64,000 nucleotides of DNA, from assembly GCA_030432695.1 (NCBI GenBank), contig JAUILN010000007.1:489553-553552 (forward strand), given 5' to 3'. The stretch's first letter is position 1. Each line of letters starts with the position of its first letter. Shown one piece after another: positions 49,685 to 56,179 of this stretch. This stretch comes from a bacterium (lineage in GTDB: Bacteria; Planctomycetota; UBA1135; UBA2386). The notes beneath the pieces are model-generated. The model ran no database searches and was not told where the DNA came from. It saw nothing but the letters and a program-made list of their open reading frames with translations. A program made the translations under genes and the position numbers.

Positions 49685-50269
49685 GTGACGACGATGCCGA
49701 TCGAGGAGCGCGTCGCGGCAGACATGAAGGGCATCGTCTTCACGGAGTTCCTCGAGCTGATCGAGCAGCGGTTCGGCCTGGAGATCGCCGACCGGGTCCT
49801 GGAGTCGACACCGCTCGCGTCCGGCGGGGTCTACACCGCAGTGGGCAGCTACCCGCACCAGGAGCTGGTGGCGATGGTCTGCAGCCTCGCGGAGATCACC
49901 GGCGAAGCTCCGGCCGATCTTCTCCGCACGTTCGGACAGCACCTGTTCGGCCGCTTCGCAGCGCTCTACCCGGCGTTCTTCCACGGCGTCGACGACGGTC
50001 TCGAGTTCCTGTGCCGGGTCGAGGACCACATCCATGTCGAGGTGCGCAAGCTCTACCCCGACGCCGAGCTTCCGAGCTTCGAGTACCAGCACGAAGACGA
50101 CCGGACGACGATTCTCTACCGCTCCCGCCGGCACTTCGGAGACCTCGCCGAAGGCTTGATCCGGGCGTGCCTGGAGCACTTCTCGACGCCGTGCCACGTC
50201 GAGCGAACGGACCTCGACGACGAGGGTGCCGAGGTCCGTTTCGAGCTGACCCCGGCCGATCGGTCGTGA
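49685..50269 (+). CDS. H-NOX (heme NO-binding) domain protein
   Basis: Proximal His context DHIHVEVRKLYPDAELPSF and YxSxR motif (YRSRR). Confidence 0.9.
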   Translation: MTTMPIEERVAADMKGIVFTEFLELIEQRFGLEIADRVLESTPLASGGVYTAVGSYPHQELVAMVCSLAEITGEAPADLLRTFGQHLFGRFAALYPAFFHGVDDGLEFLCRVEDHIHVEVRKLYPDAELPSFEYQHEDDRTTILYRSRRHFGDLAEGLIRACLEHFSTPCHVERTDLDDEGAEVRFELTPADRS

Positions 50270-51657
50270 AGATGACCGCCGAAGGCGTCCACGAGCGTCG
50301 GGCAGCACGCGAACGCGCCGCACGCAAGCAGGCCGAAGCGCTGCTCGAGCAGAAGAGCCTCGAGCTCTACCTCGCCAACCAGGACCTGACCCGCGCTCGC
50401 GACGAACTCGAGCTGCGCGTTGCCGAACGCACGCGAGAGCTGCAGCAGGTCAACAGCGAGCTGCGGAGTGCCAAGGAAGCCGCGGAAGCCGCGAGTCAGG
50501 CGAAGACCACGTTCCTCGCCAACATGAGTCACGAGATCCGCACGCCGATGACCGCGATCCTCGGCTACGCCGACCTCGCTCTCGACCCCACCGAGACCAG
50601 CGAGCGCCGCTTCGAGGCCGCGGAGATCATCAAGCGCAACGGCGAGCACCTGCTCGAGATCCTCGACGACATCCTCGACCTGTCGAAGCTCGAGGCCGGC
50701 CGTGTCTCGATCGAACGGATCCCGGTCGATCCGGTCGAGATCCTCGAGGACGTCGTCGACCTGATGCGGGTCCGCGCGGCTGCCAAGGCCCTGAACCTGA
50801 CCATGGAGCCGCGCAGTCGGCTCCCGCGCGCGGTGCTGACCGACCCGACGCGCCTGCGTCAGATCCTGGTGAACATCGTCGGCAACGCGATCAAGTTCAC
50901 CGAGGTCGGATCGGTGACGCTCATCGGCGAGTTCTTGGCCCCGAGCGGTGCCGGCCGCCTTCGCATCCACGTGGTCGACACGGGGGTCGGGATCCCGTCC
51001 GAGAGATTGGAGAGCATCTTCGCGACGTTCGGCCAGGCCGACACCACGACGACGCGCTGCTACGGTGGAACCGGCCTCGGCCTCACGCTGTCGCGAAGAC
51101 TGGCCCGTCTGCTCGGCGGCGAGATCGAGGTGAGTTCCCAGGTAGGCCTCGGCAGTCGGTTCTCGGTCGAGATCGATGCTCCCATGGTCAGGGAACACGG
51201 CTTCCATCGGCCGCACCCGGCCGCCGAGACCGCGGCCCTTCCACCCCGACCCGCGCACGACCACGACCTCCGAGGTCTCAAGGTGCTGTTCGCCGAAGAC
51301 GGACCCGACAACCAGCGCCTCATCTCCCACCTTCTGCGCCGCCGAGGTGCAGTGGTCGAGATCGTCGACAACGGTCGCGACGCGGTGGCGCGCGTGCTGG
51401 ACGCCCCGCCGCCTGGCTACGACGTGCTGCTGCTGGACATGCAGATGCCGATCATGGATGGCTACCAAGCGGCAGCGACGCTCCGCGCGGGGGGTCACAC
51501 CGGCCCGATCCTGGCACTGACCGCCAACGTCCTGCCCGTGGATCGCACGCGCTGCCTCGCCGCCGGCTGTGACGACTACGCCTCGAAGCCGATCGACGTC
51601 GACGACCTGTGCAGCAAGCTGGCCCGGCTCACCGGACGGGCGAAGCCAGGAACGTGA
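50266..51657 (+). CDS. Hybrid sensor histidine kinase/response regulator
   Basis: FLANMSHEIRTPM H-box, N box VGNAIKFTEVG, G boxes DTGVGIPSE and GGTGLGL, REC VLLLDMQMPIMDGYQA; GTGA overlap with H-NOX. Confidence 0.92.
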   Translation: MKMTAEGVHERRAARERAARKQAEALLEQKSLELYLANQDLTRARDELELRVAERTRELQQVNSELRSAKEAAEAASQAKTTFLANMSHEIRTPMTAILGYADLALDPTETSERRFEAAEIIKRNGEHLLEILDDILDLSKLEAGRVSIERIPVDPVEILEDVVDLMRVRAAAKALNLTMEPRSRLPRAVLTDPTRLRQILVNIVGNAIKFTEVGSVTLIGEFLAPSGAGRLRIHVVDTGVGIPSERLESIFATFGQADTTTTRCYGGTGLGLTLSRRLARLLGGEIEVSSQVGLGSRFSVEIDAPMVREHGFHRPHPAAETAALPPRPAHDHDLRGLKVLFAEDGPDNQRLISHLLRRRGAVVEIVDNGRDAVARVLDAPPPGYDVLLLDMQMPIMDGYQAAATLRAGGHTGPILALTANVLPVDRTRCLAAGCDDYASKPIDVDDLCSKLARLTGRAKPGT

Positions 51658-51661
51658 TCGA

Positions 51662-52040
51662 TCACCGGAGGTGCCGGACGTCGGCGGCGAACTCACGACC
51701 GATCGAGGTATTGCGGCGGATCACCGACGCCAGGGTCTGCGCCTCGACCAGGACCTGGACGCTGCGAGGCAGGTGGTTCTGGTACCAGAACCGGACGCCA
51801 TCGCGGAGTGCCCGGACCTGGCGGATCAGCACCGAATGCACCAGCTCGCCGATCAGGGCTCCGGGCAGCGGATCCTCGGCGAGTCCACCGATCCACGCGA
51901 AAGGAAGTCGTGCACCGCGTCGACGACCATTCCGTCGATCTGCTGTGCCCGCTGCGCCGCCAAACCACGGAGCAGCGACTCGTTGCCGCGCAGTTCAGCG
52001 ACGCTGGTCCCGCGAACGCACCGGAGACTCGCTGCGCAGG
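51662..52040 (-). pseudogene. Decayed, truncated animal haem peroxidase (C-terminal remnant)
   Basis: Frame 1: VAELRGNESLLRGLAAQRAQQIDGMVVDAVHDFL; shifted frame: AWIGGLAEDPLPGALIGELVHSVLIRQVRALRDGVRFWYQNHLPRSVQVLVEAQTLASVIRRNTSIG; frame break near 51895-51905. Confidence 0.8.
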
Positions 52041-52056
52041 AGAGCGGGCCGGGACT

Positions 52057-53766
52057 TCAGCGATCCGCGGCGCGCAGGAAGGTGATCGGAATCCGGAGAC
52101 TCGCGGAGACAGGCTTGCCGTCGCGCAGCTGCCGGATGATCGGATCTTCCGACTCGGCGGGAATCTTCGACAGGCTCACCTTGCCCGCGCCGCCGAGCTT
52201 GCACGCATCGACGACCTGGACGAGCGTGCCGGCCGCGACCGCGGAGTCGGTGCGGATCAACACCTCGAAGTCGTCGCCTTCGGTCTCCCCGCGTAGCCGA
52301 CGCACCAGCGTCTCCACTGATTCGATCGGCACGACCCGGCCTGCGTAGACCACCTTGCCGGTGCGGGAGATGGCGAGGAGTGGCGCGGGACCTCGATCCC
52401 CGGTGGCGTCCCTCGACTCGGATGGAGCCGCATCCCGAAGCGCCGAGCGCCGCTGAACCGCCGCGGCTTCTCCGAAGCGACCCTGCGGCGACTTGCGGGT
52501 CGCAATGTCCAGCGCGCTCGCCCGCAGCAGATCGAGTCGACCGGTCCGGGCGCGATCGGTCGCGGGCGATTGCAGCAGCTCGAGCGTCTCCTCGTATCGA
52601 TCCGCCTTCAGCAGCTCGATCGCGGAACGCAGCGGCTGGCCCTCGGCGGACCGACGAGGGTCCGGCACCAGTGCGTCCAAGTCGACTTCGTCCAAGTCGA
52701 CCGGTGGGCTCTCCGGCGGCAGCTCGGGTGGCTGGAGCGGCCGCACCGGATCTTGGACCCTCGCGTCAGGCGCCGCGGATGCGATGCGAGCCGGGACGGG
52801 CGCGAGCGTCAGCAACGCGATAGTCCCCGACAGATAGGCAGCGCGTGTCCACGCAGAGAGTGGGACGAGGGAGCGTTCCGACATGATCCTCTGAATCCTC
52901 CAGGTCATCGCACCGGCTCCGCCCGCACCGGTGGCGAGTCGTGGCATTGCCGCACCCCGCCCACCGGCCAGCAGGGCGACCGTCTTGATCAGGGCCTCGG
53001 CGTAGGTCGCGGGGCCTTCGCTGCCGAGATGGCGCAGCACGCGCTGGTCGCAGCTCGCCTCCTCGGCGAAGCGCAGTTCGGTCCGGAACCACCAGACGAG
53101 CGGCAGCCACCACCAGACTGCGAGCGCCGCCGCCTCCAGCAACCGAATCCAGTGATCACGGCGGACGTAATGCGTGAGTTCGTGCAGGAGCACCGCTCGC
53201 AGCTCGGTCGGGGACAGCTCGTCGAGGAGACCCCGAGGCAGGACCAGCGAACCCGGGATGGGCCAGATCGCCGGAGAGACGGCTGCCTCGAGGACCCGCA
53301 CTCGCGGCGGGTCAGAGAGTCCGAGCTCCGCGGCCGCGGCGAGCACGGCAGCCGACAGTCCCTGATCCGCCGCGGCGGCAACGCGTAGCCGTCGATGAAA
53401 GGACCACGCCCCGAGCGCGGTGCCGAGCGCGACCACCAACGCGCCGAGCATCCACACTGCGACGAGGACCTCTGCGAAGCTGACGACGGTAGCATCGGCG
53501 GCGAGCGGATCGACGAGTCGATCCGGAGGTGCGAACTCGAAGCTCGGCATGCCTCGCTCCGAAGTCCGGAATGCCGGAGTCTCGTCGGCAACATGCGTCG
53601 GCAGCAACGGCACCTCGAACAGCGGCGGAACGAGGAGACCGAGGAACGCCACGCACCACAGCGAATGGCCGAGTTCGCTCCGACCCAACCTGCGGGTCGA
53701 GACCCAAGCCGCAGCTGCCACGCCGAACACCACGCCCGCGTGGACCAGGATCGACAGCGGAGTCAC
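52057..53766 (-). CDS. M56 (BlaR1-type) metallopeptidase fused to C-terminal ExbD/TolR-like domain
   Basis: GTG start at 53766; LLHELTHYVRRDHWIR; C-terminal LLAISRTGKVVYAGRVVPIESVETLVRRLRG...VLIRTDSAVAAGTLVQVVDACKLGGAGKVSLSKIP. Confidence 0.8.
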   Translation of the reverse strand: MTPLSILVHAGVVFGVAAAAWVSTRRLGRSELGHSLWCVAFLGLLVPPLFEVPLLPTHVADETPAFRTSERGMPSFEFAPPDRLVDPLAADATVVSFAEVLVAVWMLGALVVALGTALGAWSFHRRLRVAAAADQGLSAAVLAAAAELGLSDPPRVRVLEAAVSPAIWPIPGSLVLPRGLLDELSPTELRAVLLHELTHYVRRDHWIRLLEAAALAVWWWLPLVWWFRTELRFAEEASCDQRVLRHLGSEGPATYAEALIKTVALLAGGRGAAMPRLATGAGGAGAMTWRIQRIMSERSLVPLSAWTRAAYLSGTIALLTLAPVPARIASAAPDARVQDPVRPLQPPELPPESPPVDLDEVDLDALVPDPRRSAEGQPLRSAIELLKADRYEETLELLQSPATDRARTGRLDLLRASALDIATRKSPQGRFGEAAAVQRRSALRDAAPSESRDATGDRGPAPLLAISRTGKVVYAGRVVPIESVETLVRRLRGETEGDDFEVLIRTDSAVAAGTLVQVVDACKLGGAGKVSLSKIPAESEDPIIRQLRDGKPVSASLRIPITFLRAADR

Positions 53767-54161
53767 GACCGCTTCTCCCGTCGGGAGTCGAGCTTCTCCA
53801 CCAGCTCGCGCAGACGCAGCACGTCCTCTGCATCGAACTTGCCACCCGAGACGAGCTGGGTGAGCAGCGAGGTCATCGATCCGCCACACAGGGCATCGGC
53901 GACGTCGCGCAAGCGGCTGTCGATCAGCCTCTCCCGGCTCACCCGGGCCCGGAACACGTGGGGTACCGAACTGCGGGATCGCGCCACCAGCTTCTTGGCC
54001 TCCAGCCGCTCGAGGAGCTTCTGCACCGTCGCATACTCGCTGGTGCTGCCCGCCTCGTAGAGCCGGTCGGTGATCGCCCGGATGGTGGCCCGGTCTTGCT
54101 CCCAGAGGACCTCGAGGACGGCCAGCTCGGCTTCGGTGACGTGTGGACGGGACTTCGACAT
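53763..54161 (-). CDS. blaI: BlaI/MecI/CopY-family transcriptional repressor
   Basis: VTEAELAVLEVLWEQDRATIRAITDRLYEAGSTSEYATVQKLLERLEAKKLV winged-helix; 4-bp overlap with the M56 gene. Confidence 0.9.
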   Translation of the reverse strand: MSKSRPHVTEAELAVLEVLWEQDRATIRAITDRLYEAGSTSEYATVQKLLERLEAKKLVARSRSSVPHVFRARVSRERLIDSRLRDVADALCGGSMTSLLTQLVSGGKFDAEDVLRLRELVEKLDSRREKRS

Positions 54162-54233: not shown

Positions 54234-56042
54234 TCACAAGCTGCGGATCGAGCCGGTGGCGGCATGCAGGAACTTCAGTCCGCCGCGCGAGACCACCCGG
54301 CCCTGGACCTCGACCGGCAGGGCGACGAGGTCCAGAACCGCATCGTTCAACGCCTCGCCCTCCGGGCCGACCAGCACGTAGTGTTCGGGTCCGTCGTCCG
54401 TGCGCACCAACAGGATCGGCGGCACGCCACCGCGGATGCAGTGGATCGCGCAGGCGCGATGCGGCTTGAGGACTCCGGGGTTCATGACGCCGAGATAGCA
54501 CTTGGAGTCGACGATCTCGCCGCGCAGCGTCGCTTCCCCAAGCTCCTCCTCGACAACGAGTGCCGCGTCGCGCGCGACCGCCCGGTCGGCGGTGGCGACG
54601 ACCGAGTCGGGAGCGACCTCGAGCATCGCCTGGCCCTGGCCGTCGTGGATCAGGGTGCCGCGCAGGGACACCTCGCGAAGGTTCAGCTCGCGCGCCGTGG
54701 TGGGATCGAAGCCGTACTTCCACTCGTTCACGAGCAGCACGACCCGCGCACCGGTCGTCGCCTCGGGTTTGGCCAGCAGCAGCATCGGCACTGGATCGCC
54801 GACCAGCACCCCGCGGTACTCCGACACGTTGCCGTAGTCGAACCACGCGCTGCGGATCGTCGACTGCATCGCCGCGAGTCCGGCACCGAGCCCGCCCACG
54901 CTCAGCGCGAGCACCAGCACGCCCCGCTTCACGAACGCCAGCTCTCCGGCGGGCCGCTCAGGGGCGGCGCCGACGAAGAACGGTCCGTCGTCGGCCGGCG
55001 CCGGCAGACCGGCTTCGATCCGCGCCGGCTCGACGTAGGTCCCGGGAGACTTGGGGGTCGGGTCGACGAACACCTTGCCTCCGACCACCCGCACCTCGAA
55101 GGTCGGCAGCTTCTCGGTGAACGGCGCCGGCGCCGCGCCGGTCGCGGGTTGGTACTGGTAGCCGTGCCACGGGCAGGTGATGCACCCGTCGATCACCTTG
55201 CCCTCGCCGAGCGGTCCGTTCTGGTGCTGGCAGACGTTCGAGACCGCGGACACCTTGCCGTCGTAGCGGAACACCGCGACGCGCTCGCCGCCGATGCACG
55301 CGATACGAGCGCGGTCCTCGGCGATCGCGTCGATGGGGCAGACCTCCACGAAGCGATCGGGCAGGGACTCCGACCGGCTCGCGTCGACGCGACGCTCCTG
55401 CGCCGCCGCTCGCAGGTGCAGGATCGCCAGGGTCGTGAACCCGGCGACGAACAGCAGCACGTATCCCGGATGCAGCTCGGCCTGCAGCACCCCGAACGCC
55501 ACGTGGATCAGCAGCGCGGCGTAGGCCACGTACACCCCCATGTGCAGCGCCTTCCACATCGGCGCGGTGAGGTTGCGGAGCCAGAAGTCATGGCTGGTCG
55601 CGGCCAGCGCGAACAGGATCAGCAGGGCCACGAAGCCGAAGGCCTGGAACGGGAAGCTGCCGAGCGTCGCACCCGCGTCGGTGGTGAACACCGAGACGAT
55701 CGGGTTGGCATCGCTGCCCACGTGGTAGGTGGCGATCGCCAGCACGGCGTGCACCAGACCGAGGAGGAACATCGTCACGCCGAGGTGGCGGCGGTTGTAG
55801 AGCAGCGGCAGGAAGCGCCGGTCGACACGCGCGAGCGGACCGATGCCGAGGATCACGTGCAGCAACACCAGCCCCCCGGCACCGGTCGCGCGCATCATCA
55901 GGATCTCGGGCGTGGCGGCGGGCTCCAGCGCGAGGCTCACGCCCAGGAAGACCACGATCCAGGCGACGACCAGGCCGAACAGCACCAGGTCGTGGCGCTT
56001 CTTGAAGCGGTTCCAGCTCACCGCGGCGTAGCCGACGCTCAT
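54234..56042 (-). CDS. Ferric-reductase-like TM domain fused to Rieske [2Fe-2S] domain and C-terminal Cys-containing domain
   Basis: Multi-TM N terminus; NVCQHQNGPLGEGKVIDGCITCPWHGYQY (CxH...CxxH); C-terminal DSKCYLGVMNPGVLKPHRACAIHCIRGG. Confidence 0.82.
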   Translation of the reverse strand: MSVGYAAVSWNRFKKRHDLVLFGLVVAWIVVFLGVSLALEPAATPEILMMRATGAGGLVLLHVILGIGPLARVDRRFLPLLYNRRHLGVTMFLLGLVHAVLAIATYHVGSDANPIVSVFTTDAGATLGSFPFQAFGFVALLILFALAATSHDFWLRNLTAPMWKALHMGVYVAYAALLIHVAFGVLQAELHPGYVLLFVAGFTTLAILHLRAAAQERRVDASRSESLPDRFVEVCPIDAIAEDRARIACIGGERVAVFRYDGKVSAVSNVCQHQNGPLGEGKVIDGCITCPWHGYQYQPATGAAPAPFTEKLPTFEVRVVGGKVFVDPTPKSPGTYVEPARIEAGLPAPADDGPFFVGAAPERPAGELAFVKRGVLVLALSVGGLGAGLAAMQSTIRSAWFDYGNVSEYRGVLVGDPVPMLLLAKPEATTGARVVLLVNEWKYGFDPTTARELNLREVSLRGTLIHDGQGQAMLEVAPDSVVATADRAVARDAALVVEEELGEATLRGEIVDSKCYLGVMNPGVLKPHRACAIHCIRGGVPPILLVRTDDGPEHYVLVGPEGEALNDAVLDLVALPVEVQGRVVSRGGLKFLHAATGSIRSL

Positions 56043-56179
56043 CGATTGCCCTCCACGGACGTCGTCGAGGGTGAGTTCGCCGGCGTGCGGAACCACAGTG
56101 CGTAGCCGCAGACCACCGGCAACAGGATCGCGAGGACGATCCAGACCGCACGGTGCACGTTTCGATGGGAGCGCAGCAT
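56039..56179 (-). CDS. 46-aa single-TM small protein
   Basis: Manual translation MLRSHRNVHRAVWIVLAILLPVVCGYALWFRTPANSPSTTSVEGNR; ATGA overlap with the Rieske fusion gene. Confidence 0.6.
   Translation of the reverse strand: MLRSHRNVHRAVWIVLAILLPVVCGYALWFRTPANSPSTTSVEGNR

Follow-up and report, generated by a model that had tools for sequence, protein, structure and literature searches.

A two-piece remnant of an animal-type haem peroxidase gene in an apparently empty gap of a Planctomycetota genome

Does the unannotated gap between a hybrid histidine kinase gene and an M56 peptidase gene in a Planctomycetota genome hold a dead gene and, if so, how did it come to be there? The gap lies in the window analysed here, a stretch of 64,000 nucleotides, and a first-pass annotation had proposed that its minus strand carries what is left of a former animal-type haem peroxidase gene. 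Animal-type haem peroxidases include white-blood-cell enzymes. The locus is an ordinary pseudogene of a known family, derived from a patchily distributed accessory gene; the remnant was correctly detected from raw sequence.

Identification of the remnant

When all minus-strand frames of the gap (51657–52057) were read, two pieces of Pfam family PF03098 were found, in order and in two frames. Piece 1 (SVAELRGNESLLRGLAAQRAQQIDGMVVDAVHDFL; 51901–52005, minus strand) shows firm homology from position 51987. It is followed by a deletion junction, placed approximately at 51898–51903 (minus strand), and then by piece 2 (AWIGGLAED...RNTSIGREFAADVRHLR; 51665–51898, minus strand), which represents the C-terminal end of the peroxidase domain and is closed by a TGA stop codon (51662–51664, minus strand). 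The frame of piece 2 is two bases on from that of piece 1, and the peroxidase remnant totals approximately 107 residues in these two frames. Both peptides quoted in the first-pass annotation are present in the translation at the positions given there, with strand, order and register correct. The frame break between them is real, as judged from translation and from an alignment to 76 intact relatives.

Piece 2 scores above the curated Pfam cut-off for PF03098 (E = 1.1e-11; score 44.5 bits, cut-off 25 bits), which marks it as a descendant of the peroxidase-cyclooxygenase superfamily. Comparison with this profile bears out the original assignment for piece 2, whereas piece 1 alone gives a weak match (E = 0.11), albeit at the correct place in the profile. 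The 76 intact bacterial relatives also supplied a profile for each piece, and the six-frame translation of the window was searched with these: piece 1 was matched with an E-value of 2.6e-13 and piece 2 with an E-value of 7.2e-31, and no other match in the window had an E-value below 1. A whole-genome search recovered the same site independently. Two strong profile matches in the correct order and on the correct strand rule out chance; they agree with the earlier claim that both peptides match the C-terminal part of the family, and support the existence of a former animal-type haem peroxidase gene.

Missing regions and loss of the haem site

In the alignment, the two pieces are separated by 66 residues in 73 of the 76 intact relatives (the previous estimate was approximately 70), and 66 codons are gone at the junction, where the frame changes. 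Because this spacing is found in nearly all intact relatives, one deletion of 3n+1 bases accounts for both the missing block and the change of frame. The internal deletion and the frame change that had been proposed as a pair both stand, but a single event suffices to yield the two.

The N-terminal part of the peroxidase is missing as well, as had been suspected. Intact relatives have an open frame of approximately 370–450 residues before the equivalent of piece 1; here, only about 50 bases separate that piece from the end of a complete M56 gene upstream. No missing peroxidase parts were found elsewhere in the same genome by a genome search. An assembly or sequencing error in an otherwise intact gene is highly improbable: although the genome is a draft in 37 contigs, such an error does not account for the lost N-terminus beside a complete M56 gene, and residues that are otherwise conserved are altered in what survives.

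The active-site residues of the family are those given in PMC5787809 and PMC4420034, and residues were numbered according to the intact peroxidase of the same genome (L037). On this scale the remnant spans residues 371–399 and 466 onward, and the deleted block corresponds to residues 400–465. The relevant motifs of L037 start at 114 (distal Gln/His), 239 (R-x-x-E), 332 (GHT, with the proximal His) and 414 (NIQRGRDHG). The distal Gln/His and the distal Arg (R-x-x-E) are absent from the remnant, as both motifs precede its first surviving residue (371). The proximal haem-ligand His is likewise absent: the GHT motif, the His of which aligns with His-325 of PDB 6ERC, also precedes the remnant. The proximal Asn and Arg, which fall in NIQR according to the alignment to PDB 6ERC and the active-site residues from PMC5787809, lie inside the deleted block. 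Every haem-site residue named in PMC5787809 is absent, and the remnant has neither the distal nor the proximal residues of a working enzyme of the peroxidase-cyclooxygenase superfamily. With all of these residues gone, the remnant is almost certainly a dead peroxidase fragment, whatever its origin.

Sequence decay and expression signals

The surviving residues have themselves changed. Of the 28 columns that are shared by 95% or more of the relatives, the remnant differs at 4, compared with a maximum of 2 in any intact relative. In RNFL, H replaces R and D replaces N; V replaces F, and it also takes the place of the second D in RDGDRFWY. In a tree, the terminal branch of the remnant is the longest of 77 (1.41, against a median of 0.5). 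Third-codon-position G+C values of 0.83 and 0.86 indicate a composition that is still coding-like, suggesting that the decay is not very old; it is presumably of moderate age.

It is scarcely credible that the surviving C-terminal piece gives rise to a short functional protein or RNA. Piece 2 is open over 78 codons and has the coding-like composition described above, but no ATG, GTG or TTG lies ahead of it in its frame, and no open reading frame of at least 70 amino acids with a start codon covers it in that frame. Neither a promoter or terminator pattern nor an Rfam family or other RNA element was found in the gap, and the conserved positions are broken. The remnant probably has no product.

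A 12-base direct repeat is present in the gap, at 52021 and 52093. This repeat is ordinary, because 31 of 158 windows of the same size carry one, and repeat-mediated deletion was rejected accordingly; no repeats above chance level were found in the gap.

Relatives and origin

The same genome contains one intact peroxidase elsewhere, on another contig (G000:C15:236256-237752), with an open frame of 670 amino acids and a PF03098 E-value of 1.2e-140. The remnant is 52% identical to this protein over piece 2 and 49% identical over both pieces. As only about half of the residues are shared, a recent duplication of the genome's own peroxidase was rejected as the source of the remnant. The nearest intact relatives of piece 2 (62–63% identity) are from Planctomycetota and Verrucomicrobiota, and further intact relatives are found in Pseudomonadota, Myxococcota, Sumerlaeota and Latescibacterota. 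Within the order of the host, 20 of 154 genomes encode an intact peroxidase. A tree based on approximately 100 columns did not place the remnant, and AU tests, with p = 0.24 for grouping with the same-genome copy and p = 0.36 for grouping with copies of the family, gave support to neither grouping and rejected neither.

Decay in place is the probable origin of this pseudogene. On this reading, an intact accessory gene for a secreted haem peroxidase (peroxidase-cyclooxygenase superfamily) would formerly have stood on the minus strand at this spot. Its 5' three quarters would have been lost, right up to where the M56 gene ends, and the 3n+1-base deletion would have taken out approximately 66 codons; the surviving 3' pieces, in their different frames, would now be drifting.

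It is unlikely that the fragment was instead already truncated on arrival, through partial duplication or transfer, and was never an intact gene here. Such an arrival would fit a family that is scattered over phyla and present in so small a share of the genomes of the order. It is also favoured by the outcome of the synteny comparison, from which the intact gene had been expected: none was seen at the equivalent locus among the fetched loci, in a set of compared genomes that includes none of the same genus, and this, like the still coding-like composition, counts against decay in place. On the other side, the low identity to the same-genome copy argues against a recent copy of it, and the gap is free of repeats above chance. 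Decay in place remains the preferred reading.

Genomic neighbourhood

The upstream neighbour, which is not part of the remnant, encodes an M56 (BlaR1-like) peptidase (52057–53889, minus strand; PF05569, E = 2.2e-33). This protein has a C-terminal ExbD/TolR-like domain (PF02472, E = 3.1e-6) and no penicillin-binding sensor domain by Pfam. The convergent neighbour, also distinct from the remnant, is a hybrid histidine kinase (50253–51657, plus strand, with an estimated start codon) with Pfam HisKA, HATPase_c and Response_reg domains. An H-NOX/HNOB gene (PF07700, E = 4e-36) precedes and slightly overlaps this receiver-containing kinase, such that 49685–51657 constitutes an H-NOX/kinase pair; H-NOX relatives at approximately 50% identity occur in some genomes of the order. 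A ferric-reductase-like membrane domain fused to a Rieske [2Fe-2S] domain is encoded at 54234–56096.

The first-pass annotation had suggested that the peroxidase belonged to a neighbouring redox or BlaI-regulated module. Neighbourhoods were compared across 104 fetched peroxidase loci, a sample that includes duplicates (76 distinct loci, 1.17 Mb); two organisms among the 104 have BlaI/M56 close to an intact peroxidase. In OFTM205 (Planctomycetota; L124:2740-7638), the intact peroxidase and a BlaI/M56 pair are adjacent and convergent, 17 bases apart; in L092 (= L146), BlaI/M56 lies approximately 2.7 kb from the intact peroxidase. Nine genomes of the order contain 58 BlaI matches, or approximately one per megabase, so about one near a peroxidase would be expected by chance in 1.17 Mb of distinct loci. 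Linkage of the peroxidase to BlaI/M56 is thus near chance level and not recurrent, and regulation of the peroxidase by BlaI is not supported. The 5' part of the gene, in front of which a BlaI operator would lie, is gone. Membership of a redox module is not supported either: no intact peroxidase in the fetched loci has H-NOX, the kinase or the Rieske protein nearby. With these three, M56 and BlaI as queries, no fetched locus showed the same arrangement. A former BlaI-M56-peroxidase operon, with the peroxidase in third place and since lost, is very unlikely. Such an operon would be a regulated oxidant-producing unit, and in L124 the M56 and peroxidase genes are in opposite orientation.

Comparison with known peroxidases

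The remnant is of little weight beyond annotation. It adds another instance of loss for a bacterial myeloperoxidase relative of patchy distribution, and illustrates that, in a gene-dense bacterial genome, a recognisable dead gene may hide in a gap left unannotated. The remnant resembles the bacterial members of PF03098 in piece 2 (above the cut-off and up to 63% identical), but differs from them in having only approximately 107 residues, in two frames and without catalytic residues. The peroxidase of the same genome (49–52% identical over the common parts) belongs to the same family and, unlike the remnant, has a full and intact domain. The C-terminal stretch of myeloperoxidase, lactoperoxidase and Dictyostelium peroxinectin A (PDB 6ERC) is homologous to the remnant; these three are active enzymes, whereas the remnant has no haem site.
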